Below, in pieces: positions 637 to 62,814 of a DNA stretch of 64,000 nucleotides; position 1 is the stretch's first letter; every line of letters begins with the position of its first letter. The position numbers were made by a program, and so were the translations under genes. The DNA comes from Methanothrix soehngenii GP6 (GTDB lineage Archaea > Halobacteriota > Methanosarcinia > Methanotrichales > Methanotrichaceae). The notes under the pieces were generated by a model, which made no database searches, had not been told where the DNA came from, and saw only the letters and a list, made by a program, of their open reading frames with translations. The stretch spans positions 2,480,001 through 2,544,000 of the forward strand of contig NC_015416.1 in NCBI RefSeq assembly GCF_000204415.1, given 5' to 3'.

Positions 637-655
637 AGCCATTCCCCTCTTATCA

Positions 656-1912: not shown

Positions 1913-2321
1913 AATATCACCTTGAATTCTCTTAGCTTGACTGATCTGCTTGATCAATTTGTTGATACTTAAACCCAACCCCGGCCTTGCCAGGGGCTTT
2001 TGCATCTGTCAAATTCAGGTTATGGGCCTTGAAGCCTCTTTGGGCTGATATTTTGATTCGGACAGGTTGCCATTCCATGGGGCGGTTCAGCAGCTTCCTG
2101 ATTGCCGGGCAGTCGCGCAGGCAGGCATCCCGCCTCGGGCTATGGCGGCGTGAGATGGAATTCTCTCCCAAGCTATGATTTCTGTCCGCGTCGCCCTCTT
2201 CCATCAGGGCGGCAGGCTCGCCCCCCTTCGCGGGATGAGGACGAAGTGGGGAGAGTGATCCAGAGGATGGGGTTTCCTTGCTGTTCAGCACGGGTGAGCT
2301 TGGCAGTGGATCTATCTTTAT
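1913..2321. other. Gene-free spacer upstream of ahcY
   Basis: Frames here are open by chance and show no domain character. The GC-rich part near 2100-2260 has no recognisable RNA or repeat. The spacer continues into a MITE-like repeat at 2322-2481. Confidence 0.5.
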
Positions 2322-2481
2322 GCCTCCATGCTATTTGCTATGGGTGAACTTGAATCGCAAAAACTCTATGTCTCTGTGCCTCAGTGGTGAACCGCTACGC
2401 ACTGACCCAACCATGGAGATGCAGAGGAACAAAAGACCATAGTCCCTGCCTTAACTCACCCACATAATTCAGCGAAGAGCC
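2322..2481. repeat. MITE-like dispersed repeat, copy 1
   Basis: About 160 bp, the most diverged of four copies in the window (others at 9683, 22508 and 39386). The left end (GCCTCCATGCTATTTGCTAT then GGGTGA) and right end (TCACCCACATAATTCAGCGA then AGAGCC) are imperfect inverted repeats of about 26 bp. An inner pair of arms (CTCTGTGCC... / ...GATGCAGAGG) means the whole unit could fold into one long hairpin. It carries no coding frame. It lies between the divergent-looking gap upstream of ahcY and the end of the deaminase gene. Confidence 0.8.
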
Positions 2482-2515
2482 AAGAGAAAGTCCCACTTAT
2501 GTTGCACGAAATGGT

Positions 2516-3760: not shown

Positions 3761-3889
3761 CCGAGAAAAATTGGCTCTGAAGATAAAAAAGATTGTCGAT
3801 TTGACAGATAAAGTGTAGGTTTTTGGGCCGGCCTTTAAAGGTGGGGTATCGTCAGGCTTAAGATCTATCGATTCCAAGCATGAGGGCGT

Positions 3890-4006
3890 GCTGAGGTAGC
3901 CAAGCGGCCTACGGCGCTGGTCTTGAGCTTTCGTCCTCCTCCAGAGGGCGGAACGGGCAAACCAGTGGTGCATCGCACCTCGTGAGTTCAAATCTCACCC
4001 TCAGCG
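3890..4006 (+). tRNA. tRNA-Ser(UGA) with a 32-nt intron
   Basis: Acceptor stem GCTGAGG pairs with CCTCAGC, followed by discriminator G, as in archaeal tRNA-Ser. D arm, a long class-II variable arm (GGTGC-ATC-GCACC) and T arm (GTGAG/CTCAC) all fold. The anticodon stem is CTGGT/ACCAG with loop CTTGAG then A, so the anticodon is TGA. Positions 3928-3959 interrupt the loop between bases 37 and 38, the canonical archaeal splice position; the intron folds as a 10-bp hairpin (TTTCGTCCTC / GAGGGCGGAA). Mature length is 85 nt. CCA is not encoded. The last 14 bases plus two flanking bases recur at 7670-7685. Confidence 0.93.
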
Positions 4007-45280: not shown

Positions 45281-46744
45281 TCAACTCCTCCTGTATGCAC
45301 GACAGCTTTCAATGAATTTATTACCAGATACCGAATAAAAGTGAGTATGCAGATATCCAGCCATGGTGTTGTTCTCCACCAGACCGTCCCGGCCATCAGC
45401 GATTCCTTTTCCCCGGGAAAGCTTCAGGCAATAACGGGCATCCCTATCACAAATGCAGCGCGAATAGTGAAACTCATGACCGCGAAGGCTCCTGCCCACA
45501 TCAGCCAAAGGATTTCTCTCCGATACCTCCGCCTTCACATAGCCAAGGGCCATGAGCCTCTTCTCCATGAACGTGGTGCAGGGAAGGGCCCCAGCCATTT
45601 TAAAGGAGCCTGCCTCCGACTCCAGGGCTGCTCCCAGATACATCAGACCCCCGCACTCTCCATAGATGGGCATGCCATCCTCGGAAGCCTTCTTGATCTG
45701 TTTCCTGGCAGGAGCTCTCTCCAGCTGAGAGGCATAAAGCTCTGGATAGCCTCCCCCGATATACAGTCCATCCACATCGGGCAACTTGTCTTCCAGAGGG
45801 CTGAAATAGACCAGATCCGCGCCATGCCTCTCCAGCTCCAAGAGGTTCTCATGATAGTAAAAGCAGAAGGCTCGATCCCTGGCCACTCCTATTCGCACCG
45901 ATCCATTTCCATTTGCCTTTGCCCCTGCCAGTTCAATAGAGGTGGAAATCGCGGGTGGCCGGGCCTGGCCCGGAAGCTTAAGAATCATGTCGATATCGGC
46001 ATTCTCCTCCAGTAATGTCGCCAGGATTCCTGGATCATGATCCTTCTCAAAGCCCATAACCAGCCCCAGGTGGCGGCTTTTCATCTCCATCTCTTTATCC
46101 CTGGGCAGGGCTCCGAATACGGGCTTTGCCAGGCAGCTTTTGAGCATATCCAGATGCCTCTTGCTTCCCACCCGGTTGAGTATCGTCCCCGCCAGCCGCA
46201 CCCCTGGATCGTAGCTGGCAAATCCCAGCTCCATGGCTGCAGCACTTCGCGACATGCCGTGCACATTGATCACCAGGAGAACGGGTATATCCAGTATCTT
46301 GGCCACCTGGGCGGTGCTGCCAACCTCTGTGCCATCCATGCCGTCGAATAGACCCATCACACCCTCCACCACCGCCACATCTGCTCCCTCGAGGGCAGAG
46401 AAAAAGGAGCGACGTACACCCTCCTCGCTCATCATAAAGGGATCTAAATTTAGGGAAGGCCGTCCACAGATAGCGGTATGGTGGGAGGGATCGATGAAGT
46501 CCGGGCCCACCTTATAAGGCTGAACCACCAGACCCCGAGCACGCAGGGCGGCCATCAGACCTAAGGTGATCGTCGTCTTGCCTACTCCGCTATGGGTACC
46601 GGCGATGAGCACCGCTGGGATAGATCCTTTCAGGGATCCCTCAATTGAGCTATCATGCGATCTCTCAATTGAACTCTCCGATGATCTCTCCAATGATCCT
46701 TCCATCGATCTATCCGACCGCCTCTTTGAACTTGCGGGGTGCAT
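45281..46744 (-). CDS. cfbB: Ni-sirohydrochlorin a,c-diamide synthase (CbiA/CobB family)
   Basis: 487 aa. ATP- and glutamine-dependent amidation of the a and c acetates of Ni-sirohydrochlorin, a step in coenzyme F430 synthesis; the family also includes cobyrinate a,c-diamide synthase, and a role in cobamide synthesis is not excluded. Residues ~43-60 carry the P-loop 'AGTHSGVGKTT', then 'KVGPDFIDPSHH' and 'EGVMGLFDGMDG'; the C-terminal half is a class I glutamine amidotransferase with the Cys nucleophile in 'YGECGGLMYLG' and a late His ('YLHTHFYS'). Residues 13-41 are an unusual run of seven Ser-ending tetrapeptides before the P-loop domain. Divergent from the DUF166 gene. Confidence 0.92.
   Translation of the reverse strand: MHPASSKRRSDRSMEGSLERSSESSIERSHDSSIEGSLKGSIPAVLIAGTHSGVGKTTITLGLMAALRARGLVVQPYKVGPDFIDPSHHTAICGRPSLNLDPFMMSEEGVRRSFFSALEGADVAVVEGVMGLFDGMDGTEVGSTAQVAKILDIPVLLVINVHGMSRSAAAMELGFASYDPGVRLAGTILNRVGSKRHLDMLKSCLAKPVFGALPRDKEMEMKSRHLGLVMGFEKDHDPGILATLLEENADIDMILKLPGQARPPAISTSIELAGAKANGNGSVRIGVARDRAFCFYYHENLLELERHGADLVYFSPLEDKLPDVDGLYIGGGYPELYASQLERAPARKQIKKASEDGMPIYGECGGLMYLGAALESEAGSFKMAGALPCTTFMEKRLMALGYVKAEVSERNPLADVGRSLRGHEFHYSRCICDRDARYCLKLSRGKGIADGRDGLVENNTMAGYLHTHFYSVSGNKFIESCRAYRRS
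46622..46708 (-). repeat. 12-bp tandem repeats at the 5' end of cfbB
   Basis: Degenerate 12-bp units (e.g. TCAATTGAGGGA) code seven tetrapeptides of the form x-(E/D/K)-x-Ser. Not part of the known CbiA fold. Confidence 0.65.
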
Positions 46745-46766
46745 GCTTCCATCTTCTCCGGCAAGG

Positions 46767-46775
46767 ATATTAATA
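46767..46775 (+). promoter_or_regulatory. TATA box of the DUF166 gene
   Basis: ATATTAATA centred 25 nt before ATG 46796, so the transcript should be leaderless. It lies just beyond the divergent cfbB start. Confidence 0.5.
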
Positions 46776-46795
46776 CGCTGGCCGATCCCTTCTGC

Positions 46796-47536
46796 ATGCT
46801 GGTTGGGGTAATCAAAAGAGGAAAATACGGCGAACGCCTTCTAGAGACCATAAAAGACCATACCGACTTCGAAGTGGTATCGGTTGATGTCCCGGAGATC
46901 CTGCCGGGATTCATAGAGGATCCGGAGGAGTTCGTCCGGGAGCTGAATTTAGACCCGCAAATCTTCCAGGCTGACCTGCTCATTCTCTACACATTTCATC
47001 CGGACCTCACTCCGGAGATCGTCCGCCTGGCAGGAAAAGAAGGGGTTAAGGCGGTCATCATTCCCGGCGGCATAGGCCGGGCGGGCTCCATCACTGAGCT
47101 GGAGAAGATCGCTGAGGTGCATAACATCCACATCGAGGTTGATGAGATCTGCTGCACCCTGGAGGAATGCGGCGTCCCGGCGATCGACCAGTTCGCGAAA
47201 AAGCTGGGAAAACCGGAGCTAGAGGTCCAGACAAAGGACGGCAAGATCAGCGGCGTGCGCGTCTTGCGTGGCTCCCCCTGCGGAGCGACATGGCATGCCG
47301 CCACAGACATAGTGGGGAAGACTGTGGCTGAGGCACCATCCCTCACAGGCCTATTCTGCCAGCAGTATCCATGTCGCGCAGTGAGGGGAGGTCCGGGGGG
47401 CATCCACACCTCCGGAGACCTGCATAAGGATGCCATGGAGAGGGCTCTGGGTAAGGTCACCCGGCTTGTCCTTCCCGAGCAGTCCAAACCCATCAAGATC
47501 GAGCCGGGAAAGAAGGGCAAGAAGCTGGAAGGGTAA
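46796..47536 (+). CDS. DUF166-family protein
   Basis: 246 aa from ATG 46796. The open frame begins at 46739, but MLVGVIKRGKYGERLLETI is the usual family N-terminus and a TATA box is placed for leaderless initiation there. DUF166 features are clear: 'LILYTFHPDLTPEIVRLAG', 'AVIIPGGIGRAGS', conserved Cys residues in 'EICCTLEECG', and 'RGSPCGATWHAATDIVG' with 'FCQQYPCRAVRG', suggesting a metal or cofactor site. The family is largely restricted to methanogenic archaea; biochemical role not established. Directly followed (3 nt) by the fumarase genes. Confidence 0.9.
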   Translation: MLVGVIKRGKYGERLLETIKDHTDFEVVSVDVPEILPGFIEDPEEFVRELNLDPQIFQADLLILYTFHPDLTPEIVRLAGKEGVKAVIIPGGIGRAGSITELEKIAEVHNIHIEVDEICCTLEECGVPAIDQFAKKLGKPELEVQTKDGKISGVRVLRGSPCGATWHAATDIVGKTVAEAPSLTGLFCQQYPCRAVRGGPGGIHTSGDLHKDAMERALGKVTRLVLPEQSKPIKIEPGKKGKKLEG

Positions 47537-47539
47537 AAG

Positions 47540-48439
47540 ATGGGTGAGAATCAGATGATCACTAGCACTCAGGTGACAGACGCCACCGTTCGCGCCCTAT
47601 ATCGAGCGGAAACCTCTCTTCCTCCCTGGGTCTTGGAGAGAATAAAAGAAGGGCTTGAAAGGGAGACCAATCCCCTGGCCCGCTCTCAGCTTCAGTTCAT
47701 GCTGGACAATGTTAGCCTTGCCGGATCAAGAGGCCTGCCCATCTGCCAGGATACGGGCCTGGCCATATTTCATGTTCTGATGGGCCAGGATCTGATCCTG
47801 GACTTCGATCTTCAGGAGGCCATAGCTCAGGGAGTGAGGAGAGCAACATCTCAGATACCTCTACGGCCCAATGCCGTCGATCCCTTAACAAGAGAGAACA
47901 GCAAGGACAATACCGGTCCCGGGATGCCGGACATCATCCTGGACCAGGCCCGTGGCCAGAGCCTGAGCATAACTGCTTTTCCCAAGGGAGCGGGATCTGA
48001 GAACATGAGCCTCGTCATGATGCTCAATCCGGCAGACGATCCGATGGAGTTCATCGTCGATGCGGTCAGGGAAAGGGCAGCCAATGCCTGTCCACCCCTG
48101 TTCCTGGGAATAGGGATCGGCGGCAGCTTCGATCTGGCCGCCCGGCTGGCCAAGCACGCTCTCCTCAATATGCACCGCATCCAGCCATATTCTCAGGAAT
48201 CCTCCCAGAGAGCCGACCGCAGCATCACCCTTACCACCTCACCTGAAGAGATAAAAAAGCTTGAAGAGAGCCTCATGAAGAGGCTGAACAACCTGGGCAT
48301 CGGCCCCATGGGCCTGGGCGGGGACACCACCGTCCTCGGCCTGAGAATCGAGAAGGCTCTATGCCATACCGCCTCCCTGCCGGTGGCCATAAACTTCCAG
48401 TGCTGGGCAAACAGAAGCGCTACCGAGGTGATTTTATGA
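47540..48439 (+). CDS. fumA: Class I fumarate hydratase, alpha subunit
   Basis: 299 aa. Alpha subunit of the two-subunit, 4Fe-4S-dependent fumarase (or a tartrate dehydratase relative). Cluster ligands are in 'GLPICQDTGLAIF', 'ERAANACPPLFLGIGIGGS' and 'ALCHTASLPVAINFQCWANR'. 'NTGPGMPDIILDQ' and 'PKGAGSENMS' are family signatures. The gene lies 3 nt after DUF166 and overlaps the beta gene by four bases (ATGA), so the two subunits are translationally coupled. In methanogens fumarase works in the incomplete TCA cycle linking malate and fumarate. Confidence 0.93.
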   Translation: MGENQMITSTQVTDATVRALYRAETSLPPWVLERIKEGLERETNPLARSQLQFMLDNVSLAGSRGLPICQDTGLAIFHVLMGQDLILDFDLQEAIAQGVRRATSQIPLRPNAVDPLTRENSKDNTGPGMPDIILDQARGQSLSITAFPKGAGSENMSLVMMLNPADDPMEFIVDAVRERAANACPPLFLGIGIGGSFDLAARLAKHALLNMHRIQPYSQESSQRADRSITLTTSPEEIKKLEESLMKRLNNLGIGPMGLGGDTTVLGLRIEKALCHTASLPVAINFQCWANRSATEVIL

Positions 48440-48972
48440 CCATATTTCATCTCCATACCCCCCTTTGCCAGGAGGATGTGAAAAAGCTAAACGCTGGTGA
48501 TATAGTATTTCTGAAGGGCAAGGTGTTCACCGCTCGGGACAAAGCCCATGCTCTGATCCGTCGCCAGGGCAGCCCAGTACCTTTAGAGGGAGCGGCGCTC
48601 TATCATTGCGGCCCCATCATTCAGGATGATTCTGTCATCTCTGCCGGGCCTACCACCAGCGGCCGAATGGCACGCTATACCGATGAGATTCTGGCTTTAG
48701 GGGTGAAGGCCATAATCGGCAAAGGAGGCCTGCCAGGAGAGCCGTTCTTGAATAGAGCAGTCTATCTTGCCTATCCAGGGGGTTGCGGTGCGGCGGCTGC
48801 ATCACAGCTTCGGATTCGTGCTGTTCACTTCCCGGAGCTGGGGATGGCGGAGTCCATCTGGGAGCTGGAGGCCGAAGATCTTGGTCCCATGGTAGTGGCA
48901 GTGGACTCGTATGGTCGGGATCTGTACCAGGATGTGAGACTGTCGGCGAAGGCTGCAAGAGAGAAGCAATAA
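48436..48972 (+). CDS. fumB: Class I fumarate hydratase, beta subunit
   Basis: 178 aa starting MTIFHLHTPLCQEDVKKLNA. GAGGTGA lies 4-5 nt upstream, inside the alpha gene. Family signatures: 'GDIVFLKGKVFTARDKAHA', 'YHCGPIIQDDSVISAGPTTS', 'GRMARYTDEILALGVKAIIG', 'AYPGGCGAAAASQL', and 'PMVVAVDSYGRDLY' at the C-terminus, where the swivelling domain supplies substrate contacts. Gene symbol denotes the beta subunit of the two-component enzyme, not E. coli FumB. Its stop overlaps the region where the DUF434 coding region must begin. Confidence 0.93.
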   Translation: MTIFHLHTPLCQEDVKKLNAGDIVFLKGKVFTARDKAHALIRRQGSPVPLEGAALYHCGPIIQDDSVISAGPTTSGRMARYTDEILALGVKAIIGKGGLPGEPFLNRAVYLAYPGGCGAAAASQLRIRAVHFPELGMAESIWELEAEDLGPMVVAVDSYGRDLYQDVRLSAKAAREKQ

Positions 48973-52079: not shown

Positions 52080-52113
52080 TGCCAAGAGTCATTTCAACAC
52101 CAGTGGGGTCAGT

Positions 52114-52659
52114 ATGAAGACTGCATTTGCAGCAGCAATGGCATTGCTGATAGCATGCCTCTTGGTCGGGAACGCTCTTGCTCAGGAGAATAATAACTTC
52201 CAGAGCGTTGGCGGGGACTACGGCAGAAATGTATTGAGCACCATCGGAGCATCGGACGCCGAGGCGGCATCAAAAAGCGAGAGCAATCAAAATCTATGGA
52301 GCTGGGGAGGAGCGCCCAAAGGCAGCCTGATTGTGGACGGTAATATCATCGGCGATCCGCGGTATACGTTGAAGAACCTGAGCGTTATGCGCGATTGGCT
52401 GGGCGATTCGTTCGTGGATCCCTATGGAGATACTCCTGCTTATTCCTATTTCGATCCGGTCACTGGGGAGAGAGTTAAAACCTATGTGGATCCAATCACC
52501 GGGCAGCACTACTATACATACACAGATTCCAATAGCGGAAAACTGGTCTACGTCTACTTTAATCCGGAGACTGGCGAGCCGATATATGCCAGCTTCACTC
52601 CCATCTCCGGCCAATACATCGAAGAAGAGCAATACTCATTGCCACCAATACTCAGATAA
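52114..52659 (+). CDS. Exported LWSWG family member 2
   Basis: 181 aa from ATG 52114, the first Met followed by a signal peptide ('AFAAAMALLIACLLVGNALA'); upstream in-frame residues belong to the end of the UbiA gene in another frame. Block 1 'DYGRNVLSTIG', a Ser/Glu linker, then 'LWSWGGAPKGSLIVDG'. Residues ~108-170 are five short repeats of the form (F/V/T)(D/N/T)PxTGxxxxxY ('FDPVTGERVKTY', 'VDPITGQHYYTY', 'TDSNSGKLVYVY', 'FNPETGEPIYAS', 'FTPISGQYI'), likely beta hairpins. It ends 'YSLPPILR'. Followed by its paralogue 66 nt later under a duplicated promoter. Function unknown. Confidence 0.78.
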   Translation: MKTAFAAAMALLIACLLVGNALAQENNNFQSVGGDYGRNVLSTIGASDAEAASKSESNQNLWSWGGAPKGSLIVDGNIIGDPRYTLKNLSVMRDWLGDSFVDPYGDTPAYSYFDPVTGERVKTYVDPITGQHYYTYTDSNSGKLVYVYFNPETGEPIYASFTPISGQYIEEEQYSLPPILR

Positions 52660-52725: not shown

Positions 52726-53211
52726 ATGAAGACTGCATTAGCAGTGATTGTATTGGCATTAGCTTGTCTCTTGCTAGCGAACTCTTCTGCTCAGAGCATT
52801 GGCAGCTTTCAGACTCTGAGTGGAGATTCCGGCAGGTCTATCCTGGCAAGCCTGGAGGCCATTGATTCCCAATCAAAGGAAAAAAGCCAGAATACGAGCG
52901 AGAATGATACCCTTTGGAGCTGGGGAAGCGCGCCCAAGGGAAGCGTTCTTGTGGATGGAGAGGTCTTGACCGATCCATTCAACAGCTGGAAGGATTTCAA
53001 CCTCACAGAGAGCGGGATAGCTCAAGTGGGAGTCGATCCCTTCAAGGGGTATCCGATATATGCCTACAAGATCCCCAGGACTGGGGAGACGAAGTACTTC
53101 TACCTGGATCCTTACACCAATGAGCCATTCTATGTGGATGGCTATGCCGGTGCAGACATCCCTGTTGTTGCGAAGAGCAGCAGTTACTCATTGCCACCGG
53201 TCTTGAGATAG
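52726..53211 (+). CDS. Exported LWSWG family member 3
   Basis: 161 aa. Signal peptide 'ALAVIVLALACLLLANSSA', then 'LSGDSGRSILASLEAIDS', a Ser/Lys/Asn linker with one sequon, 'DTLWSWGSAPKGSVLVDGEV', and a Tyr-rich C-terminal half holding two of the DPxTG-like units ('KIPRTGETKYFY', 'LDPYTNEPFYV'). It ends 'YSLPPVLR', the same C-terminal motif as the preceding gene. The pair arose by tandem duplication that included the promoter. No named family is known to me. Extracellular. Confidence 0.78.
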   Translation: MKTALAVIVLALACLLLANSSAQSIGSFQTLSGDSGRSILASLEAIDSQSKEKSQNTSENDTLWSWGSAPKGSVLVDGEVLTDPFNSWKDFNLTESGIAQVGVDPFKGYPIYAYKIPRTGETKYFYLDPYTNEPFYVDGYAGADIPVVAKSSSYSLPPVLR

Positions 53212-53960: not shown

Positions 53961-54233
53961 ATGCAATGGGAACTGGTTGGCTGGTGTGCAGCTCTTTTGA
54001 CGATGTTCGGATTCGTCCCCCAGATCCTCAAAATCTATCGGACAGAGTCTGTCTCAGATGTCAGCCTGATCATGCTCCTGCAATTTTCACTGGGAATGTT
54101 CCTCTGGCTGCTCTATGGCCTGTATATTCAGGATCGCATTCTGATCGTCTCCAATACGATCTCCTTTCTCACCCTGATGGTGGCCACCGGGATGTATATG
54201 AAGTACAGAAAAAGTGGTGCCAGCCCTCTGTAG
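53961..54233 (+). CDS. SemiSWEET/PQ-loop sugar transporter
   Basis: 90 aa with three transmembrane helices: ~4-22, ~36-55 and ~62-80. The PQ motif lies in 'LLTMFGFVPQILKIYRTESV', and 'LGMFLWLLYGLYIQDRILIV' is the second-helix signature with the Trp and Asn-side lining of the sugar site ('VSNTISFLTL'). SemiSWEETs act as dimers facilitating sugar diffusion across the membrane. No ribosome site is obvious. Stands alone after the terminator at 53800. Confidence 0.88.
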   Translation: MQWELVGWCAALLTMFGFVPQILKIYRTESVSDVSLIMLLQFSLGMFLWLLYGLYIQDRILIVSNTISFLTLMVATGMYMKYRKSGASPL

Positions 54234-54355: not shown

Positions 54356-54661
54356 CTATCCGTCTTCTTCCCGCTCACTCATCTTATTTTTGATCCTCTC
54401 TTGCAGCCTCTCCAGAGAGGCTTTTGTGCTCAGGCGACTGTCACAGGGAGAAGTGTCTTTGGGATTGCAGCCAGCCAGAAGGTCCATCACTCTGTCGGCC
54501 ATATCGAAGGCCTCAAGCTCCTCCAGATGCTGCAATAAGATACTGGCGCGGGAGTTGAATTCCCGGCATTTCCCCGTCTGCGAGATAGCAGCCTCGTGCA
54601 TTTCATAGAGCAGAGAAAGCTCCTTATTGATCTGCAACCAGTCCTCCCTTTTTATCGCCAT
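54356..54661 (-). CDS. Hypothetical helical protein (101 aa)
   Basis: Starts MAIKREDWLQINKELSLLYE. It is wholly helical and charged ('ASILLQHLEELEAFDMADRV', 'ERLQERIKNKMSEREEDG'), with three Cys residues. No family is recognised. The open frame reaches 54706, but the Met at 54661 is preferred because the corresponding sequence is duplicated from exactly that region at 57855-57925. It is divergent from the first ArsR gene and could be part of the same regulatory unit. Confidence 0.5.
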   Translation of the reverse strand: MAIKREDWLQINKELSLLYEMHEAAISQTGKCREFNSRASILLQHLEELEAFDMADRVMDLLAGCNPKDTSPCDSRLSTKASLERLQERIKNKMSEREEDG

Positions 54662-54811
54662 CCGGGAAAGGTATCCATCTTTCAGAAATATTAAGGCGAT
54701 GATCAAGGCGATTCTCTCAATGCAGAGGCGATGGTCTTATAGTCTCGATTCCAGTATCCTCGAATCCGATCAGCCTGAAAAATCGAATCAATTGCTTGAA
54801 TATGGAAGAGT

Positions 54812-54852
54812 GATAATATCGTATTATCGTCTTATGGCGATAAGCTTATATC
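54812..54852 (+). promoter_or_regulatory. Operator/promoter of arsR copy A
   Basis: Perfect dyad GATAATA-TCG-TATTATC (54812-54828), then CTTAT-GGCG-ATAAG (54831-54844) abutting the TATA-like CTTATATC (54845-54852), ~30 nt before the ATG. Candidate ArsR binding sites. Confidence 0.55.
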
Positions 54853-54879
54853 TGAATATGCTTTAATCGCGCTCCAATC

Positions 54880-55224
54880 ATGGCTCAAAAGAATGTCTCT
54901 GAACTGCGCTTGAAGATTCTGAGCGCTCTGTCCGATCCCACCCGTCTGGAGCTGCTCGAATACCTGAGCGGGGGCGAGCGATGCGTTTGCGAGATCCTTC
55001 CCGCCTTCTCCAGATCTCAGTCCACCATATCCAAGCATCTGAATATCCTCTTCGAGGCCGACATTCTGGATCGCAGAATAGACGGGAAAAAGACGCTCTA
55101 CAGCATAAAAGACCCTCAGGTTTTCGAATTGGTTCGCCTTGTAGACCAGATGGCCCTAAAGCAGATATCGCAGCTCGCAGAAGCAGGAAGGATTATCGAG
55201 GAGTCATTGAGCTGCGGGAGATAG
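54880..55224 (+). CDS. arsR: ArsR-family regulator, copy A
   Basis: 114-aa winged-helix repressor. 'LKILSALSDPTRLELLEYLS' opens the domain, 'SRSQSTISKHLNILFEADIL' is the recognition helix, and 'RIDGKKTLYSI' the wing. 'ERCVCEIL' matches the CxC (ELCVCDL-like) metalloid-sensing site of ArsR, so As(III)/Sb(III) or another soft ligand may be the inducer. Transcript predicted to be nearly leaderless. The permease gene follows within 5 nt, so autoregulation of a two-gene operon is likely. Nearly identical to the regulator at 58076. Confidence 0.9.
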   Translation: MAQKNVSELRLKILSALSDPTRLELLEYLSGGERCVCEILPAFSRSQSTISKHLNILFEADILDRRIDGKKTLYSIKDPQVFELVRLVDQMALKQISQLAEAGRIIEESLSCGR

Positions 55225-55229
55225 ATTTC

Positions 55230-56315
55230 ATGGCAACCTATGTCATAATGGCAGCCTTGGAGGCCGGGCTGGCAACACTGCTTGAATACCTCTCGGCGCA
55301 TGTATTGACCTGCCTGGTGCCAGCATTCTTCATCGCCGGTGCGATAGCAGCTCTCTTGAACAAGGATACTGTGCTCAAGTACTTCGGTGCTGATGCCCCA
55401 AAGTGGCTCTGCTACAGCGTGGCTTCCACCTCGGGGACTATATTGGCCGTCTGCAGCTGCACCATCCTGCCCATGTTTGCAGGAATCGAAAAGAGAGGGG
55501 CGGGCATTGGGCCAGCAACGGCCTTCCTCTTCTCCGGACCGGCGATAAACCTCATGGCCATCATCCTCACAGCCAGGGTCTTGGGCCTGGACCTGGGTGT
55601 AGCCAGGGCAGTGGCTGCAGTCTTCATGGCCGTGGTTATAGGTCTGATCATGGCGGCTATATTCCAAAGACATGACCCAAGCTGCAAAAACGATGCGGCT
55701 CCTTCTTCTTTTGATGTCGATCCAGACCCGGATCAAATGAGCCGGCCCAAATATATCACTGGCACATTTATGGCCGTGCTGGTGGCCATACTGCTCGTTG
55801 CCACCTCAAGCGCCATAGAGCTCCTGCCCAAGGCGATAATCGTGGGAGCGCTGATAGCAGTGGCTGCCTTCCTGATGAATAGATACTACCAGCCAGAGGA
55901 AAAGAGCGCCTTCCTGGAAGAGACCTGGTGGCTGACCAGGAAGATCTTTCCTCTCCTGGTAGTGGGCACATTTGTAACCGGGGTGATCGGCTACTTCCTG
56001 CCGGTTGAATGGGTAAGGACCATCTTTGGCACCAGCAGCTTTCTGGCCTGTTTTCTGGCCTCAGTGATCGGCTCGTTGCTCTATATGCCTACATTGCTTG
56101 AGGTGCCAGTAGTCGGAACTCTTTTCGGCTATAGCACGGGAGTTACGGCTGCCGGTCCTGCTCTGGCCCTTCTGCTTGCTGGTCCATCCCTGAGCCTTCC
56201 CAATATGATTGTTATCTGGAGGATAGTTGGAGCGAAAAAGGCCAGCGTCTACATCAGCCTGGTGGTGATCCTATCCACATTGGTGGGAATGCTCTACGGT
56301 GCCGTCGTTTCATAA
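55230..56315 (+). CDS. Permease of the DUF318/ArsP family, copy A
   Basis: 361 aa with two four- or five-helix bundles separated by a polar loop (residues ~148-172, 'RHDPSCKNDAAPSSFDVDPD'). Family motifs: 'VCSCTILPMFAGI' with a Cys pair in the membrane, 'GIGPATAFLFSGPAINLMAI', and the mirror half 'SVIGSLLYMPTLLEVPVVG' and 'GPALALLLAGPSLSLPNMIV'. Members (COG0701) include ArsP, which exports trivalent organoarsenicals, and relatives linked to other soft thiol-reactive compounds. Control by the ArsR protein just upstream supports export of such a compound. Start ATG 55230. Confidence 0.88.
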   Translation: MATYVIMAALEAGLATLLEYLSAHVLTCLVPAFFIAGAIAALLNKDTVLKYFGADAPKWLCYSVASTSGTILAVCSCTILPMFAGIEKRGAGIGPATAFLFSGPAINLMAIILTARVLGLDLGVARAVAAVFMAVVIGLIMAAIFQRHDPSCKNDAAPSSFDVDPDPDQMSRPKYITGTFMAVLVAILLVATSSAIELLPKAIIVGALIAVAAFLMNRYYQPEEKSAFLEETWWLTRKIFPLLVVGTFVTGVIGYFLPVEWVRTIFGTSSFLACFLASVIGSLLYMPTLLEVPVVGTLFGYSTGVTAAGPALALLLAGPSLSLPNMIVIWRIVGAKKASVYISLVVILSTLVGMLYGAVVS

Positions 56316-56341
56316 TTGATAAGAGTAGGAGGATATCTTAT

Positions 56342-56911
56342 TTATTTTGAGATTCCCGGTTCTACCTCGGACACCCGGCCGCCTTCGACCTTGACTCTGA
56401 CCATGGTCTTCAGGTTGTAGCCTTTGGACCTCAGCAGCTCTGCTCCGTTTCCTCTCTCCACCACGATCACTGTATCCATAACCTCGGCCCCAGCCAGCTC
56501 CATAGAGTCCAGCGTGGCCTGAAGGGTGCCGCCGGTGCTGATCACATCATCCACCACGATCACCCTATCTCCCCTGTTTATTCCGTTCAGATAGAGCTGC
56601 GAGCGGGAGTAGCCGGTGACCTGGCTGATCTCGACCTCATTCGGGAGCCCGTACTTTCTCTTCCTTATTATCACCAGGGGGATATCGCATAGGATGGAAA
56701 GCACTATGCCTATGGGAATTCCCATGGCCTCAACAGTCACTATCTTATCCACATCCAGATTGGCGATCCGCACGATATTGGCGGTGACCTCTCTGATCAG
56801 ATCCGGCCTGATCTCGGGAACTCCGTCTGTAATGGGATGGATGAAGTAGTCGTACTCTCCCCGTTTGAATACGGGGGCTTCCAGCAATGATTTTTTGAGC
56901 CTTTCCAGCAT
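56342..56911 (-). CDS. hpt: Hypoxanthine/guanine phosphoribosyltransferase (archaeal Hpt)
   Basis: 189 aa. Purine salvage: transfers hypoxanthine or guanine to PRPP. The PRPP-binding motif is 'VIVVDDVISTGGTL' (~118-131), preceded by 'TVEAMGIPIGIVLS' and 'PLVIIRKRKYGLPNEVEIS' as in archaeal Hpt, which is related to adenine phosphoribosyltransferase. Residue patterns after the PRPP loop ('AEVMDTVIVVERG') complete the fold. It lies in the opposite orientation between the two ArsR-permease units and is not itself duplicated. Confidence 0.9.
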   Translation of the reverse strand: MLERLKKSLLEAPVFKRGEYDYFIHPITDGVPEIRPDLIREVTANIVRIANLDVDKIVTVEAMGIPIGIVLSILCDIPLVIIRKRKYGLPNEVEISQVTGYSRSQLYLNGINRGDRVIVVDDVISTGGTLQATLDSMELAGAEVMDTVIVVERGNGAELLRSKGYNLKTMVRVKVEGGRVSEVEPGISK

Positions 56912-57015
56912 AGGTGAGTTCTTTCATACTATTTTCCTTTTCAAGTTATTGGTCCCTGTGGCCAATCCTCCGGCAGGGCGGAAAAGATATATGACGTCCG
57001 ATAGGGATGCTATTG

Positions 57016-57807
57016 ATGACAGAGAAAAGCGTATGGGAAGAGTTTTTCGATGCTCATGCTCCGATCTATGAGGAAAACGTATTCACAAAAAACACCATTC
57101 AGGAGGTCAATTTCCTTACAGAGGAACTGGCGGTGAGAGATGGGGGCTCAATTCTTGATGTTGGATGCGGTACAGGACGTCACTCCATTGAGCTGGCCAG
57201 GCGGGGTTATGCTGTCACCGGGCTTGATCTGTCCGCAGAGATGCTTGCCAGGGCTGCGGATGCTGCCAGGAGCAAAAAAGTGAATGTGCAATGGATTCGT
57301 TCTGATGCTGCCCGGTTTCAGCTACCGAATAGCTACGATGGCGCAATCTGCCTGTGCGAGGGAGCTTTTGGGCTTCTGGGCAAGGGCGATGATCCTATTG
57401 GCCAGCCCCTGTCCATCCTGTGCAATATCTCCCGCAGCCTGAAGCCGCAGGCAAAGGCAGTATTCACTGTTCTCAACGCACTGGCATCGATTCGCAGGAA
57501 CGCGAATAAGGACGTTGAGGAGGGACGATTCGATCCTCTGACACTGGTTGAGTCTTCGGAATGCACGCCCCAAGAGGGGGTGGCTGCAGTTGCCGTTCGA
57601 GAGAGGGCTTTCGTGCCAACTGAGCTCGTCCTGCTCTTCCGCCTGGCAGGGATGTCTGTGATCAACATATGGGGCGGGACAGCAGGGAACTGGGGGAGAA
57701 GGCCCGTCGACCTGGATGAGATGGAGATCATGGTTGTGGCATGCAAAACAGGCGAGCCTCTGGATGGGGATGGCGCCCGCTCGCGCTCAAAATTGTCTGC
57801 AGAATAA
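57016..57807 (+). CDS. Class I SAM-dependent methyltransferase
   Basis: 263 aa from ATG 57016 (AGGG at a distance of ~9 nt; ATG 57007 is an alternative). Motif I 'ILDVGCGTGRHSIELARRGY', motif II 'VTGLDLSAEMLARA', 'VQWIRSDAARFQLPNSYDGA' and 'LCEGAFGLLG' establish the Rossmann methyltransferase fold. The C-terminal ~60 residues extend with 'INIWGGTAGNWGRRPVDLDE', typical of small-molecule methylases of the UbiE/arsenite-methylase type, but the three Cys of ArsM are not seen, so arsenite is not implied. Lies between the duplicated ArsR-permease units. Confidence 0.85.
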   Translation: MTEKSVWEEFFDAHAPIYEENVFTKNTIQEVNFLTEELAVRDGGSILDVGCGTGRHSIELARRGYAVTGLDLSAEMLARAADAARSKKVNVQWIRSDAARFQLPNSYDGAICLCEGAFGLLGKGDDPIGQPLSILCNISRSLKPQAKAVFTVLNALASIRRNANKDVEEGRFDPLTLVESSECTPQEGVAAVAVRERAFVPTELVLLFRLAGMSVINIWGGTAGNWGRRPVDLDEMEIMVVACKTGEPLDGDGARSRSKLSAE

Positions 57808-57854
57808 AAGCTCTGTGCGGGAGTTGAAATGCCAGCATTCTGCCTTTAGATAAC

Positions 57855-57925
57855 TGCCTCGTGCAGCTCGCAGAGCAGAGAAAGCTCCTTTTGGATCTGC
57901 ACCAGTCGTCCCTGTTCATCGCCAT
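57855..57925 (-). pseudogene. Frameshifted fragment of the 101-aa hypothetical gene
   Basis: Bases 57855-57925 match the first ~70 nt of the gene at 54356-54661 (ATGGCGAT..AGGGA.GACTGG). One T is missing after the Trp codon, shifting the frame. It marks the left limit of the duplicated segment. Confidence 0.7.
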
Positions 57926-58026
57926 CCGGGAAAGATATCCGCTATTACGGAGTATTAAGGCGATGCTCTCAAAACAAACGTGATGCTCTAAATGTGGTTC
58001 GATTAGATGTGCATTTCTATTATCGT

Positions 58027-58048
58027 CTTATGGCGATAAGTTTATATC
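58027..58048 (+). promoter_or_regulatory. Operator/promoter of arsR copy B
   Basis: CTTATGGCGATAAG (58027-58040) followed by TTTATATC (58041-58048). Only the right half (TATTATC) of the upstream dyad seen in copy A is retained. Confidence 0.5.
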
Positions 58049-58075
58049 GGAATATGCATTAATCGCGCTTTAATC

Positions 58076-58420
58076 ATGGCTCAAAAGAATGTCTCTGAAC
58101 TGCGCTTAAAGATTCTGAGCGCTCTGTCCGATCCCATCCGTCTGGAGCTGCTCGAATTCCTGAGCGGGGGCGAGCGATGCGTTTGCGAGATCCTTCCCGC
58201 CTTCTCCAGATCTCAGTCCACCATATCCAAACATCTGAACATCCTCTTCGAGGCCGACATTCTGGATCGCAGAATAGACGGGAAAAAGACGCTCTACAGC
58301 ATAAAAGACCCTCAGGTTTTCGAATTGGTTCGCCTTGTAGACCGGATGGCCTTAAAGCAGATATCGCAGCTCGCAGAAGCAGGAAGGATTCTCGAGGAAT
58401 CATTGGGCATCGGGAGATGA
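58076..58420 (+). CDS. arsR: ArsR-family regulator, copy B
   Basis: 114 aa, differing from copy A at only a handful of positions (for example Pro-Ile for Pro-Thr near residue 21 and 'LGIGR' for 'LSCGR' at the end). Winged helix with 'SRSQSTISKHLNILFEADIL' and the CxC motif 'ERCVCEIL'. Leaderless, with an operator similar to but shorter than that of copy A. Its stop overlaps the permease start by ATGA, tighter coupling than in copy A. Because both repressors keep the same recognition helix, cross-regulation between the two units is likely. Confidence 0.9.
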   Translation: MAQKNVSELRLKILSALSDPIRLELLEFLSGGERCVCEILPAFSRSQSTISKHLNILFEADILDRRIDGKKTLYSIKDPQVFELVRLVDRMALKQISQLAEAGRILEESLGIGR

Positions 58421-59511
58421 TATTTACGGTAACTTATACCATCATGGCAGCCTTGGAGGCCGGGCTGGCAACGCTGCTTGAATACCTTTCGGCGCATGTC
58501 TTGACCTGCCTTGTGCCAGCATTCTTCATAGCCGGTGCAATAGCAGCTCTCTTGAACAAGGATACTGTGCTCAAGTACTTCGGTGCTGATGCTCCCAAGT
58601 GGCTCTGCTACAGCGTGGCTTCCACCTCAGGGACCATATTGGCAGTGTGCAGCTGCACCATCCTGCCCATGTTTGCAGGAATCGAAAAGAGAGGCGCAGG
58701 CATTGGGCCGGCAACGGCCTTCCTCTTCTCCGGACCGGCGATAAACCTCATGGCCATCATCCTCACAGCCAGGGTCCTGGGCCTGGACCTGGGCATAGCC
58801 AGGGCAGTGGCCGCAGTGATCATGGCCGTGGTCATAGGTCTGATCATGGCGGCCATGTTCCAAAAACATGACCCAAGCTGCAAAACCGATGTTGCTCCTT
58901 CTATGATTCAGGCCGATCCAAAGCCAGATCAGATGAGCCGGCCAAATTATATCACAGGCACATTTATGGCAGTTCTGGTGGCCATACTGCTCGTTGCCAC
59001 CTCAAGTGCCATAGAGCTCCTGCCCAAGGCGATAATTGTGGGAGCGCTGATAGCAGTGGCCGCCTTCCTTATGAACAAGTATTACGAGCCAGAGGAAAAG
59101 AGCGCCTTCCTGGAAGAGACCTGGTGGCTGACCAAGAAGATCTTTCCTCTGCTGGTAGTGGGCACATTTGTAACCGGGGTGATCGGCTACTTCCTGCCGG
59201 TTGAATGGGTCAGGACAATCTTCGGCACCAGCAGCTTTCTGGCCTGCTTTCTGGCCTCAGTGATCGGCTCGTTGCTTTATATGCCCACATTGCTTGAGGT
59301 GCCGATCGTCGGCACTCTCTTCGGCTACAGCACGGGAGTTATGGCTGCCGGTCCTGCTCTGGCCCTTCTGCTTGCTGGCCCCTCCTTGAGCCTACCCAGT
59401 ATGATAGTTATCTGGAGGATCATTGGAGCGAAAAAAGCCAGCGTCTACATCAGCCTGGTGGTGATCTTATCCACATTGGTGGGAATGCTCTACGGTGCCA
59501 TCGTTTCATAA
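58417..59511 (+). CDS. Permease of the DUF318/ArsP family, copy B
   Basis: 364 aa starting MIFTVTYTIMAALEAGLATL. Sequence is close to copy A throughout the membrane parts; differences cluster in the cytoplasmic or external loop ('KHDPSCKTDVAPSMIQADPK') and at the N-terminus. 'VCSCTILPMFAGI' and the duplicated half-motifs are kept. Followed after 22 nt by an exported protein and then a redox gene set, whereas copy A is followed by the convergent hpt gene. Copy B is thus the one likely to work with the downstream cluster. Confidence 0.88.
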   Translation: MIFTVTYTIMAALEAGLATLLEYLSAHVLTCLVPAFFIAGAIAALLNKDTVLKYFGADAPKWLCYSVASTSGTILAVCSCTILPMFAGIEKRGAGIGPATAFLFSGPAINLMAIILTARVLGLDLGIARAVAAVIMAVVIGLIMAAMFQKHDPSCKTDVAPSMIQADPKPDQMSRPNYITGTFMAVLVAILLVATSSAIELLPKAIIVGALIAVAAFLMNKYYEPEEKSAFLEETWWLTKKIFPLLVVGTFVTGVIGYFLPVEWVRTIFGTSSFLACFLASVIGSLLYMPTLLEVPIVGTLFGYSTGVMAAGPALALLLAGPSLSLPSMIVIWRIIGAKKASVYISLVVILSTLVGMLYGAIVS

Positions 59512-59533
59512 TTGATAAAAGGAGTGAGATAAA

Positions 59534-60097
59534 ATGAGATACTATGCCATTCGGGCCATAATTGCATTGGCCTGTATATTCCTTCTGGCGAGCTGTGCTG
59601 GAGCGGTGAAAGTCACTTCTGCATTGCATATCGATACCTATACCGACGCCGAGAATGAGGATCAGAGCTTTGGAGAAGAGAGCGCTGTATGGGTCTCATC
59701 CCACATGGGGGAGCCTGTGAGGATTGCCTATCTCTCCTTTGCCGGCATGACCAAGCTGCCCGAGCAGATAAGCTCCGCCAACCTGAAGATCTACGTCAAA
59801 GGGGTGGAAAGGCCAGGAAAGGTGACTCTCTACCTTTACGATAATGCAGCCATGAACACCGTTACCTGGGCGGATCAGCCTGAATATGATTCGCAGGCCC
59901 TGGGAAGCATAGAGATTCAGGAGACAGGCTGGCAGACCTGGGATGCTACAGATTTTGTGAAAAAGGCGGCAGTAGAGTGCAGCGAGGGCTGTTCCTTCTC
60001 AGTGGTTTTGGTGGCTGATGAAGATGCCTCCATAAGCTTCGCCTCCCAAGAGGGATCCGAGGAGGAGAAGGCTGTCTTGCAGTATGAAGCATTCTGA
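59534..60097 (+). CDS. Exported DNRLRE-like protein
   Basis: 187 aa. Signal peptide ('AIIALACIFLLASCAGA', with a Cys that could also be a lipobox). Mature part: 'SALHIDTYTDAENEDQSFGE', 'RIAYLSFAGMTKLPEQISS', 'ANLKIYVKGVERPGKVTLYL', 'VTWADQPEYDSQALGS' and 'GWQTWDATDFVKKA', the DNRLRE sandwich pattern with Asp-rich loops that may bind calcium. GGAGTGAGAT is 4-9 nt upstream of the ATG and the permease stop is 22 nt away, so it belongs to the copy B operon. Role in that operon unknown. Confidence 0.78.
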   Translation: MRYYAIRAIIALACIFLLASCAGAVKVTSALHIDTYTDAENEDQSFGEESAVWVSSHMGEPVRIAYLSFAGMTKLPEQISSANLKIYVKGVERPGKVTLYLYDNAAMNTVTWADQPEYDSQALGSIEIQETGWQTWDATDFVKKAAVECSEGCSFSVVLVADEDASISFASQEGSEEEKAVLQYEAF

Positions 60098-60211
60098 TGA
60101 TCGATAGAACCGATCGATGAGAATAGCAGCAGAATCGGAGAAAAATCGCCGGAGAAGAATACCTCCCTCCGGCATAATCCTATTCAGATTAAGCGATGCG
60201 GGAAAAGTGAG

Positions 60212-61306
60212 ATGAAGGCCAGACGGCGAATCACAGCAGTTCTGCTGACGGTAGCCCTATTCATGGTTCTATTGCCTGCTGCTGCATGGGCTAACAGCGA
60301 GATAACTGTAATCACCTCTCCCGGTTGCAGCAAGTGCGCTGCTGCAGAAAGGGCGCTGACAGAGGTTCTGTCTAATTACCAGGAGAGCACCTTTGAAGAG
60401 GTTATATTTTCCAGTGAAGAGGGACACAGGATCGTAAAGGAGCATAAGGTCAAGGATGTTCCATCGATAATCATCGGCAGTTCGGTTATCGGCTACAAAG
60501 ACTATGGTGGAAACGAAAGCAGACTTAAGATACTAATCAATGCTGCTTTGCAGGGAGAGAATATCAGCGTTAAGAGTGAGGATGAAACAGATAGCAATCT
60601 GAATATTGAAGATGCACTGCAAAATCTTAACCTATCTTCCGCTGTCACTGTCTTTGCGGCTGGCCTTCTGGCGGGCTTCAACCCCTGTCTTCTGGCTATA
60701 CTGGCCTTTCTGGCGAGCACCGTGCTGGCCAGCTCCGGCCGAAGAAGGGATCTATTGACCATGATAGCACTCTTCTCCCTGGGCATATTCGTTGTTTACT
60801 ACATATTCGGAGTAGGCCTGTTCAATGTTCTGCAGGAGAAGTCCACTGCCACCATGTTTAAACTTGTTCTGGCAGCCGTACTGCTGATCCTGGGCTTGAC
60901 TCAGATGGAAGACGGGAGAAGGTTGAATGCAGGACGGGATTCCCTCTTTCGCACAGATTGGGCTATGAAGTATGTGCATGGTGCTCTGGCCAGCAAGAGG
61001 CTTAGCTCCTATTTCCTATTAGGTGCACTGTTCTCTTTAGTGAAGGCCCCCTGTGTAGGAGCGGTCTATATCGCCATCATAGGGGTTATTTCCAGCCATG
61101 GATATTCCTCGTCAGGTCTGATATATCTGATGTTATACAACCTGGGAATAGTGCTTCCCGTGCTGCTCTTGGGAGTTATCATGACCCTTGGCATGAGCCC
61201 GGAGCAGGTGGACGATTTCCGGAATAATCACAAAGTGGCCATAAGAGTGATAACAGGGCTTACATTGATCATTCTTGCTCCGCTGATTTACTGGGAGCTG
61301 ATTTGA
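60212..61306 (+). CDS. Exported glutaredoxin-like domain fused to CcdA/DsbD-type membrane protein
   Basis: 364 aa. Signal peptide or first helix 'AVLLTVALFMVLLPAAAWA'. Residues ~28-110 form a thioredoxin-fold domain with 'TSPGCSKCAAAERAL' (CxxC) and the cis-Pro strand 'VKDVPSIIIG'. Residues ~145-364 are a CcdA-type six-helix electron carrier with its paired Cys sites: 'GLLAGFNPCLLAILAFLAS' and 'SLVKAPCVGAVYIAIIGV'. It should pass reducing equivalents from cytoplasmic thioredoxin across the membrane to the fused outer CxxC domain. The next gene supplies a matching cytoplasmic thioredoxin-like protein. Confidence 0.9.
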   Translation: MKARRRITAVLLTVALFMVLLPAAAWANSEITVITSPGCSKCAAAERALTEVLSNYQESTFEEVIFSSEEGHRIVKEHKVKDVPSIIIGSSVIGYKDYGGNESRLKILINAALQGENISVKSEDETDSNLNIEDALQNLNLSSAVTVFAAGLLAGFNPCLLAILAFLASTVLASSGRRRDLLTMIALFSLGIFVVYYIFGVGLFNVLQEKSTATMFKLVLAAVLLILGLTQMEDGRRLNAGRDSLFRTDWAMKYVHGALASKRLSSYFLLGALFSLVKAPCVGAVYIAIIGVISSHGYSSSGLIYLMLYNLGIVLPVLLLGVIMTLGMSPEQVDDFRNNHKVAIRVITGLTLIILAPLIYWELI

Positions 61307-61328
61307 GCTAAAAAGGAAGGCGAATTAA

Positions 61329-61565
61329 ATGGTAAAGATTGAAGTTCTGGGGACAGGCTGCGCCAAGTGCAAGAGCCTGCTGAAGAATGTGGAGAAAGCA
61401 GTAGCAGAATTGGGCGTCTCTGCTGAGGTGGTCAAGGTTGACAGCATCCAGGAGATAATGGACAGAGGTGTGATGATGACCCCTGCCCTTTACATCGACG
61501 GAAAGTCAATGATGGCGGGCAGAACGGCAACAGTTGAAGAGATCAAGAGGATGCTTCAGAAATAA
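61329..61565 (+). CDS. Small thioredoxin-fold redox protein (TIGR00412 type)
   Basis: 78 aa. 'MVKIEVLGTGCAKCKSLLKN' carries the CxxC (Cys-Ala-Lys-Cys), and 'GVMMTPALYIDGK' the cis-proline. This is the compact redox-active disulfide family known from methanogens (MTH895-like), often next to COG0701 permeases and ArsR regulators. It is the likely electron donor for the CcdA-type protein 22 nt upstream. Cytoplasmic. Confidence 0.9.
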   Translation: MVKIEVLGTGCAKCKSLLKNVEKAVAELGVSAEVVKVDSIQEIMDRGVMMTPALYIDGKSMMAGRTATVEEIKRMLQK

Positions 61566-61579
61566 GGGTGACCTGAATT

Positions 61580-61726
61580 ATGGATGAGAAGAGATGCACT
61601 TGTGGTACAATGGATGTGCGCGTAGTAGCCTGTTCAGGCGGCTCGAATGTGGGACAGATCGCGAATGATGCAGCAAAAGCCTGTTCACTGGTGGTAGAGA
61701 AGGTAAAAGATGAGCTTGCCGCATGA
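61580..61726 (+). CDS. Miniature DGC-type (putative zinc-binding) protein, 48 aa
   Basis: Starts MDEKRCTCGTMDVRVVACSG and continues 'GSNVGQIANDAAKACSLVVE' to a Lys/Glu-rich helix. The beginning matches the N-terminus of DGC-domain 'putative zinc-binding' proteins (CSGGSNVGQ...AND.A), which are normally about 110-130 residues; here the sequence jumps to a C-terminal-like helix. GGTGA lies ~8 nt before the ATG. Four Cys (two in CTC, one in ACSG, one in KACS) could bind zinc or another thiophile. It could be functional in miniature or an internal-deletion relic. Confidence 0.6.
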   Translation: MDEKRCTCGTMDVRVVACSGGSNVGQIANDAAKACSLVVEKVKDELAA

Positions 61727-61743
61727 AATCAGGTAGGTGCGAT

Positions 61744-62814
61744 ATGAGTATTCTAAATGCAAAAAAAAGCATAACATGCGCTCTTTTGCTGGCTACCCTG
61801 GCCCTTACGCAGAGCGCATATGGCGGGGCTGAATGTGCTTCCCTTGGCGGCGGCTGCGATGACGGCGGCGACTGGGATCCCATGGCCAAGCTGGATGAGA
61901 TAGGCACCGGAATATACGACCAGGCTCAGGCCAGCGCAAATTGGCCCGCAGAGTCGAGGAAACAAAGATGGAATATGTCTTCCGGCAGCGAGGACAGCCA
62001 GGGGGAGGACGGGGCTGCATCTACTATTAAGGAAGATGTGAGAGCTGATCTGAGCGCTGAGCAGAGTACTGGCAGGTGGCATGAGATAATAATTGAGATT
62101 GATGAGATCTCAAATGAGAATGTTCTCCTGGATGTCAGCGAGAGTGCCAAAGAGCACATCTCTGGATCTATAGCCATTCCTTATCAGGAGTTCCTGCAAG
62201 GGGACTCGCTCAAATCCGTGCCGGAATTGGCAGAGATCCTCGGAAATGCCGGAATCTCCAGTGATGATCCCCTGGTCATCTATGGAGAGTGCCTGCCTTG
62301 CGGAGGAGGGCCATCGGCTTCAGCCTATGTCTACTGGATGCTTAAATCCCTGGGGCATGAAGATGTCAGGATCCTAAACGGATATGTGCAGGACTGGAAG
62401 GATAAAGGACTGCCGGTATCATCAAATGCGACCACTAGGCCTGTTGCTGAATACGTACCTCAATTCACCGATCAGTATATTGGAAGCTATAATTATGTGA
62501 AGAGCGGCCAGGCTCAAGTGGTAGACGCCAGGACAGTTTTAGAGTACGAATCGGGAACGATCCCCTCTGCCATCAGCATTCCTTATGAGAGTGTCCTTGA
62601 TGGCGATAAGCTGAGGAATGTGAATGAGCTGGATGAGCGCTTTTTCATTTTGGATAAAGAGCAACAGGTTGTGGCATTTACAAACACGGGCTTCAAAGGC
62701 TCTGTTTTATGGCTTGCCCTGGAGATCATGGGCTATGATGCCCGGCTCTACAGCTACCAGAATTGGATGGCAAATCAGCTCATAGAGCAAAGATCCAGTG
62801 ATGCCCAGGAGTGA
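61744..62814 (+). CDS. Exported tandem rhodanese-domain protein 1
   Basis: 356 aa from ATG 61744 (AGGT 5 nt upstream; ATG 61723 overlaps the preceding stop and is less likely). Signal peptide 'ITCALLLATLALTQSAYG'. A ~75-residue polar spacer with Cys-Asp-rich 'ECASLGGGCDDGGDW' is followed by two rhodanese-like domains. In the first the active loop is 'YGECLPCGGGPSASAYVYWM', keeping a Cys in CxxC; in the second the loop 'AFTNTGFKGSVLWLAL' has no Cys, so only one domain can form a persulfide. Sulfur or selenium transfer outside the cell membrane is inferred. Confidence 0.82.
   Translation: MSILNAKKSITCALLLATLALTQSAYGGAECASLGGGCDDGGDWDPMAKLDEIGTGIYDQAQASANWPAESRKQRWNMSSGSEDSQGEDGAASTIKEDVRADLSAEQSTGRWHEIIIEIDEISNENVLLDVSESAKEHISGSIAIPYQEFLQGDSLKSVPELAEILGNAGISSDDPLVIYGECLPCGGGPSASAYVYWMLKSLGHEDVRILNGYVQDWKDKGLPVSSNATTRPVAEYVPQFTDQYIGSYNYVKSGQAQVVDARTVLEYESGTIPSAISIPYESVLDGDKLRNVNELDERFFILDKEQQVVAFTNTGFKGSVLWLALEIMGYDARLYSYQNWMANQLIEQRSSDAQE

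Follow-up and report, generated by a model that had tools for sequence, protein, structure and literature searches.

Two nearly identical units, each made of an ArsR-type regulator gene and a permease gene, start 3.2 kb apart in the chromosome of the methanogenic archaeon Methanothrix soehngenii GP6. The question is how they came to be there, which of them is the derived one and what they may control. They lie in a window of 64,000 nucleotides (C1:2480001-2544000), the whole stretch of DNA analysed here, from a genome of 3,026,645 bases in two contigs (C1, 3,008,626 bases); positions are those of the window unless given as genome positions. The duplication is real, recent and lineage-specific, of a known type and within ordinary genome evolution. 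The best explanation of the whole, which we consider probable, is a history of tandem duplication together with an ArsR-repressed regulon of three sites.

Extent and content of the duplicated unit

A sequence-only reading of this DNA had proposed two near-identical ArsR-permease copies, each preceded by the 5′ part of one hypothetical gene (hyp), with hpt and a methyltransferase gene between them, and these points were confirmed. The alignment of both units gave a single homologous block, 54548-56328 for copy A and 57817-59524 for copy B, outside which identity was at background level. Within it (local alignment, A vs B), promoter plus arsR were identical at 384 of 401 positions and the permease block at 1014 of 1102. 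The ArsR proteins are about 95% identical (6 of 114 residues differ) and the permeases about 94% (23 of 361 aligned residues differ).

Copy A is preceded by a gene for a SemiSWEET/MtN3-like membrane protein (53961-54233, +; Pfam MtN3_slv and PQ-loop), which adjoins hyp in relatives too, and by intact hyp itself (54356-54661, -; probable start 54661, reading frame open to 54706). The hyp product matched none of the Pfam or NCBIfam profiles at E 0.001, and its alignment with most relatives begins at residue 12-25. The unit then comprises a predicted ArsR operator with a TATA-like box (54826-54851, +; dyad 54826-54841, box 54845-54851; one mismatch to the pattern, with 0 matches for the reversed-pattern control), arsR (54880-55224, +; HTH_5; NF033788, 81.9 bits, cut-off 55), encoding an ArsR/SmtB metalloregulator with a CVC motif, and an ArsP_1-type permease gene, arsP (55230-56315, +; PF03773, 244.2 bits, cut-off 32.3). 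In copy B the corresponding elements are the predicted operator and box (58022-58047, +; exact pattern match), arsR (58076-58420, +; HTH_5; NF033788, 78.7 bits, cut-off 55) and the permease gene (58417-59511, +; PF03773, 242.3 bits, cut-off 32.3), whose start overlaps the arsR stop (ATGA). The listed 444-residue permease reading frames run into the arsR reading, and the permeases most likely start at 55230 in A and 58417 in B.

Between the units, the segment 56329-57816 holds hpt (56342-56911, -; hypoxanthine/guanine phosphoribosyltransferase, NF040646, 277.6 bits, cut-off 200) and a SAM methyltransferase gene (57007-57807, +; Pfam Methyltransf_25). Copy B is followed by genes for a CBM96/DNRLRE-domain protein (59534-60097, +; CBM96, 116.5 bits), a thioredoxin-like plus CcdA/DsbD-type membrane protein, here called TrxCcdA (60212-61306, +; DsbD_TM, 45.7 bits), an ArsE/MTH895-type small thioredoxin (61329-61565, +; TIGR00412, 104.2 bits, cut-off 62) and a rhodanese-domain protein (61723-62814, +; Pfam Rhodanese, 67.2 bits).

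Relationship of the two copies

Matches were found in 24 of the 26 genomes of the genus, the own genome included; 23 have a close relative and one (G010) distant ones only. The permease tree was built on 24 rows, 4 of the 28 units being left out as partial or odd. In it, A, B and a contig assigned to genome G001 form one clade at 100/100, and the ArsR tree (26 rows) has the same clade at 93/100. The permease dS between A and B was 0.244, against 0.932 and 0.991 between B and two other species rows (L008 and L007). The closest permeases among named records belong to Methanosaeta/Methanothrix MAGs. Since A and B are sisters at 100/100 within the genus, the duplication took place within the own lineage, and the segmental duplication is borne out.

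The contig of G001 (MVRK01000001, 3966 bp) was considered as a second species carrying copy B and rejected. It is identical to the window at 3950 of 3966 positions, while the own hpt of G001 is only 76% identical and its other arsP 69%. With these genes of G001 so diverged, the contig is probably a stray one from a strain of the window's species and is not independent evidence. Its positions 1-3966 correspond to window positions 57640-61605, with all 16 differences outside 57706-60543, so that 2.8 kb over arsR-arsP-CBM96 are identical to the window; this uneven spread may reflect recombination or assembly.

Flanks and direction of the duplication

In relatives, different selections from a set of CBM96, TrxCcdA, ArsE, DGC and rhodanese genes come after operator, arsR and arsP. 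Among the 35 loci of named genomes, some of which end at a contig end and one of which is the stray contig and so not independent, 26 have ArsE downstream of arsP and 13 have CBM96 there; hpt was absent from the examined stretch of all 35. Copy B retains this downstream cluster (CBM96, TrxCcdA, ArsE, rhodaneses). Copy A lacks it and retains the upstream neighbours, the SemiSWEET-like gene and intact hyp. Of the 28 relative hyp loci examined (37 relative hits in all), 12 have the two genes of that pair side by side, and no arsR was seen in the examined stretch of those 12. A diverged hyp paralogue (48-52%) adjoins arsR-arsP of the same type in three relative loci, and one further relative hyp locus has a distant arsR. 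In G009 and G016, hyp is bordered on its other side by a gene from a block that is represented in this genome at position 2,572,330, about 33 kb beyond B. Each copy thus has one old side, which fits a tandem duplication of 5′ hyp-arsR-arsP.

The hyp part beside copy B is a decayed remnant on the minus strand, frameshifted and truncated as had been described; it lacks a partner for A position 54636, a one-base deletion, and contains an in-frame stop. Its alignment scored 144.5, whereas 500 shuffles reached no more than 26.0. It spans 57817-57968, somewhat more than the 57855-57925 reported before. Its distance from hyp, 0.198, matches the age of the permease pair. The proposal that copy B or its flank is derived therefore holds for the flank, by virtue of this remnant, and fails for copy B itself, whose downstream genes are the cluster of relatives that A lacks. 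So, the direction of the duplication has to be corrected.

Smaller features of the two units were also compared. The arsR-arsP junction is a 5-nt spacer in A and an ATGA overlap in B and in four relative loci (L135, L146, L147 and L149), while in other relatives the spacing is 4 to 19 nt or the start is unclear; the spacer of A is probably derived. The arsP-CBM96 spacer of B resembles that of relatives, and so do the approximately 13 nt behind copy A (56316-56328, +), up to the point where A/B homology ends; to see in the 3′ end of A a trace of that spacer is suggestive only. Among the polarised nucleotide changes in the permease gene, 46 fell in A and 27 in B, with 12 unresolved (binomial p 0.034), while in arsR the same comparison gave p 0.23; this is a weak indication of faster change in copy A.

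The junction between the copies

The segment 56329-57816 is bounded by the ends of A/B homology, so the duplication junction is occupied by hpt and the methyltransferase gene. At 21 relative hpt loci (at most 1.5 kb on each side), neither arsR nor arsP nor the methyltransferase gene was seen. In 4 of 6 longer relative stretches hpt has a neighbour gene that here stands at genome position 464,543, which is 2.07 Mb from hpt along the contig, or, on a circular chromosome, 0.94 Mb in the opposite direction. The methyltransferase had matches at E <= 1e-30 in 8 of the 50 family genomes, a count that takes in this genome and the stray G001 contig. Near full-length relatives of it (79% and 74%) occur in two other genera, and three genomes have stop-bearing partial matches; the gene is patchy and decaying in the family.

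Proposed history and alternatives

The sequence of events that we infer would begin with the cluster operator-arsR-arsP-CBM96-TrxCcdA-ArsE-rhodanese coming to lie beside the SemiSWEET-hyp pair in the own lineage. About 1.8 kb, reaching from within hyp to a point just past arsP, would then have been duplicated in tandem, producing the order hyp-arsR-arsP-hyp′-arsR-arsP-CBM96. The junction would later have been filled by hpt and the methyltransferase gene, hyp′ would have decayed, and gene conversion would have made arsR and its promoter partly uniform again, with the permeases diverging meanwhile. No pre-duplication arrangement occurs among the genomes examined, so the order of these steps is a reconstruction.

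Other histories account for part of the same facts. In one of them, a single rearrangement, with no strict tandem step, would have brought in copy A as a dispersed copy of the cluster head along with hpt and the methyltransferase gene. The location of hpt elsewhere in relatives and the exact fit of the hpt-methyltransferase segment into the junction agree with this, but by itself it leaves the hyp sequence before both copies unexplained, and we regard it as unlikely. It is also quite improbable that the arsR-arsP of copy B is the newcomer, hyp-arsR-arsP from A having replaced, or been placed at, the head of the downstream cluster. The decayed hyp remnant stands beside B and the intact gene beside A, as such a transfer would have it; against it, the ATGA overlap is shared by B with the four relative loci while A has the spacer, the sequence between arsP and CBM96 in B is like that of relatives, and a tandem duplication yields identical flanks in one step. 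As to separate acquisition of the two units by horizontal transfer, which had been named beforehand as the refutation of a duplication, no supporting point was found. It fails on the sister clade at 100/100 and on the permease dS, which is much lower between the copies than towards the nearest species rows, besides the hyp flank common to both copies; within the sampled genomes it is refuted, and we give it next to no weight.

Predicted operator and a third site

A 26-base element, ATCGTCWTATNGCGATANGTTTATAT, lies before arsR and can be seen by eye in the unfiltered upstream regions. In 30 rows picked for a match to the element at no more than 4 mismatches, a choice that raises the figure, the information content was 1.66 bits per column within the element, 0.23 upstream of it and 0.48 downstream. 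The first 16 bases form the dyad ATCG-N8-CGAT, which runs straight into the TATA-like box. The element was found in 19 of 26 genus genomes (up to 3 mismatches) and, with one base loosened and up to 3 mismatches, in 33 of 50 family genomes, being missed in 17. The reversed pattern gave 0 matches in every genome of the genus set and in all 50 family genomes. Of 41 sites found in the family 38 were examined, and at 36 of them, A, B and the stray contig included, arsR starts 23-29 nt downstream, a nearness partly built in because the pattern was written from regions preceding arsR. Of the two remaining sites, one is truncated where its contig stops, and the other is a third site in this genome. 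In three genomes (G003, G008 and G022) both ArsR and the element are diverged.

The third site, at genome position 2,690,545, has a weaker TATA-like box and stands 144 nt before the first gene of a cluster ArsE2-DGC-rhodA2-rhodB2, which is 151 kb away and has neither arsR nor arsP. An arsR or arsP remnant was sought there, and none was found beyond the operator stretch itself. The stretch from this operator copy through its cluster corresponds to genome C1 2690545-2694215 (4546-8216 of the extracted locus L169), with a DUF2193 gene on the other side.

These sites point to a small regulon of three sites in the genome, as a prediction. In archaeal promoters, an ArsR bound to the dyad would cover the BRE/TATA region. 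Bound to ATCG-N8-CGAT directly upstream of the TATA box, ArsR dimers would deny TBP/TFB access to the promoter until released by a thiophilic ligand (As(III), Sb(III), an organoarsenical or a metal) at the CVC cysteines. Both arsR-arsP units and the arsR-less ArsE2-DGC-rhodanese unit would then be induced together, and the permease would export the toxicant. All the parts are of known kinds, and of the predictions made here the regulon of three sites is the most useful. The analysis supplies a predicted operator, defined precisely enough to be tested, for one group of archaeal ArsR proteins, and a third target in the genome that has no regulator of its own. No paper was recognised among those listed by the literature searches as treating this locus or operator, which is not a claim that none is in print.

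Silent divergence of arsR

The dS between the arsR copies was 0.064, and of the fourfold sites none of 49 differed in arsR, while 38 of 199 did in arsP (Fisher p 0.0002). A change-point fell at codon 107 of the 114 in arsR (p 0.0017 by permutation), and the longest identical run between the copies was weakly unusual (p 0.045). Having far fewer silent differences in arsR than in the permease gene suggests later gene conversion of promoter and arsR as the likeliest cause. The alternative that the DNA of arsR is itself constrained seems possible rather than probable. It gains from the control pair L013/L015, with fewer silent changes in arsR too (p 0.004), and from L011/L015, which leans the same way (p 0.06); it loses from the remaining 7 of 9 control species pairs, with p 0.15 or more, and from several pairs with more silent change in arsR than in arsP. 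These nine pairs share rows and are not independent.

If conversion is the true cause, the locus offers a compact example from nature in which a regulator is kept uniform and the transporter linked to it diverges. Speculatively, two nearly interchangeable ArsR proteins might be kept alike by conversion since both serve three promoters, with the permeases, free of this demand, diverging; an uncharacterised archaeal thiol/metalloid regulon would then join an ArsP-type pump to thioredoxin, DGC and rhodanese. We hold this wider picture to be rather doubtful.

Divergence in the permease loop

The differences between the permeases cluster in a loop, as had been noticed. For residues 145-175, dN was 0.188 and dS 0.308 (dN/dS about 0.61), against dN 0.021 and dS 0.240 in the rest of the protein (A vs B). 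The column entropy of the loop in 21 other rows was 1.98 bits, compared with 0.60 overall. Relaxed or diversifying change had been suggested, and only the former stands: the loop varies throughout the genus, and with the dN/dS found the case for diversifying selection is removed. The loop is under a weak constraint common to the genus. In an AlphaFold model of the permease, residues 146-173, approximately, are without helix; the model, with a mean pLDDT of 49, was too poor for a fold search. A phmmer search found no relatives among solved structures at E <= 0.01.

Predicted function and known systems

The CVC pair is present in both ArsR copies and in each arsR translation compared, and we take it to be the metal-thiolate motif of ArsR/SmtB metalloregulators. 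Membership of that family agrees with the NF033788 scores, both above cut-off, and with the predicted operator dyad at the own promoter of A and B. Both permeases pass the gathering score of ArsP_1, and the small thioredoxin passes the cut-off of the ArsE/MTH895 model. From the CVC pair, the ArsP_1 permease and the ArsE-type thioredoxin, a response to metalloids or organoarsenicals is the best guess. The permeases scored 91.0 and 94.7 bits with the SO_0444 Cu/Zn efflux equivalog (below 300) and 89.0 and 89.2 bits with the SaoE equivalog (below 325). ArsR of copy A has a cysteine at residue 112 that is absent in B and in 21 compared relatives (one gapped there).

Concerning known systems, passages of PMC6205960 state that ArsP of Campylobacter jejuni exports trivalent organoarsenicals and not arsenite, and that redundant ars operons arise by duplication or transfer. 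The present units resemble the ArsR-ArsP operons treated in those passages in that the gene of an ArsP_1 permease comes after that of an ArsR/SmtB regulator, whose own promoter carries a putative operator; the differences are that they are archaeal, that their permeases fall below the cut-offs of both NCBIfam permease equivalogs matched, and that their substrate is a matter of prediction. The twin ars operons of Pseudomonas putida KT2440, mentioned in the same source, are likewise redundant within one chromosome, whereas here the starts lie close together, a broken flank is shared and the copies are sisters within the lineage. ArsE, ArsF and ArsG are given as organoarsenical resistance genes in PMC9144182. 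The likeness here is that a small thioredoxin of the ArsE model and a CcdA-like membrane protein stand side by side; the difference is that the latter has an N-terminal thioredoxin-like part and scored 40.8 bits with the ArsG model NF040495, below the cut-off of 200. MsvR, described in PMC3729527 as a redox regulator of methanogens, is similar in being a methanogen DNA-binding regulator with cysteines, but the ArsR copies of the window scored 34.0 and 35.7 bits with its model, far below the cut-off of 220.

Further observations in the neighbourhood

About 18 kb from copy B (genome C1 2557497-2558330 and 2559346-2559624) there are a distant ArsR (42%) and an ArsP-like permease (22-26%), followed by a hyp paralogue. 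The genes at 52103-52659 and 52726-53211 encode related proteins in tandem and share direct repeats of 30 and 74 nt; genes like this pair adjoin SemiSWEET-hyp in some relatives. The neighbourhood is rearranging, as seen from a three-gene block at 45281-48440, which in another genome (G025:C8, locus L105) lies beside the ars locus in the other orientation.
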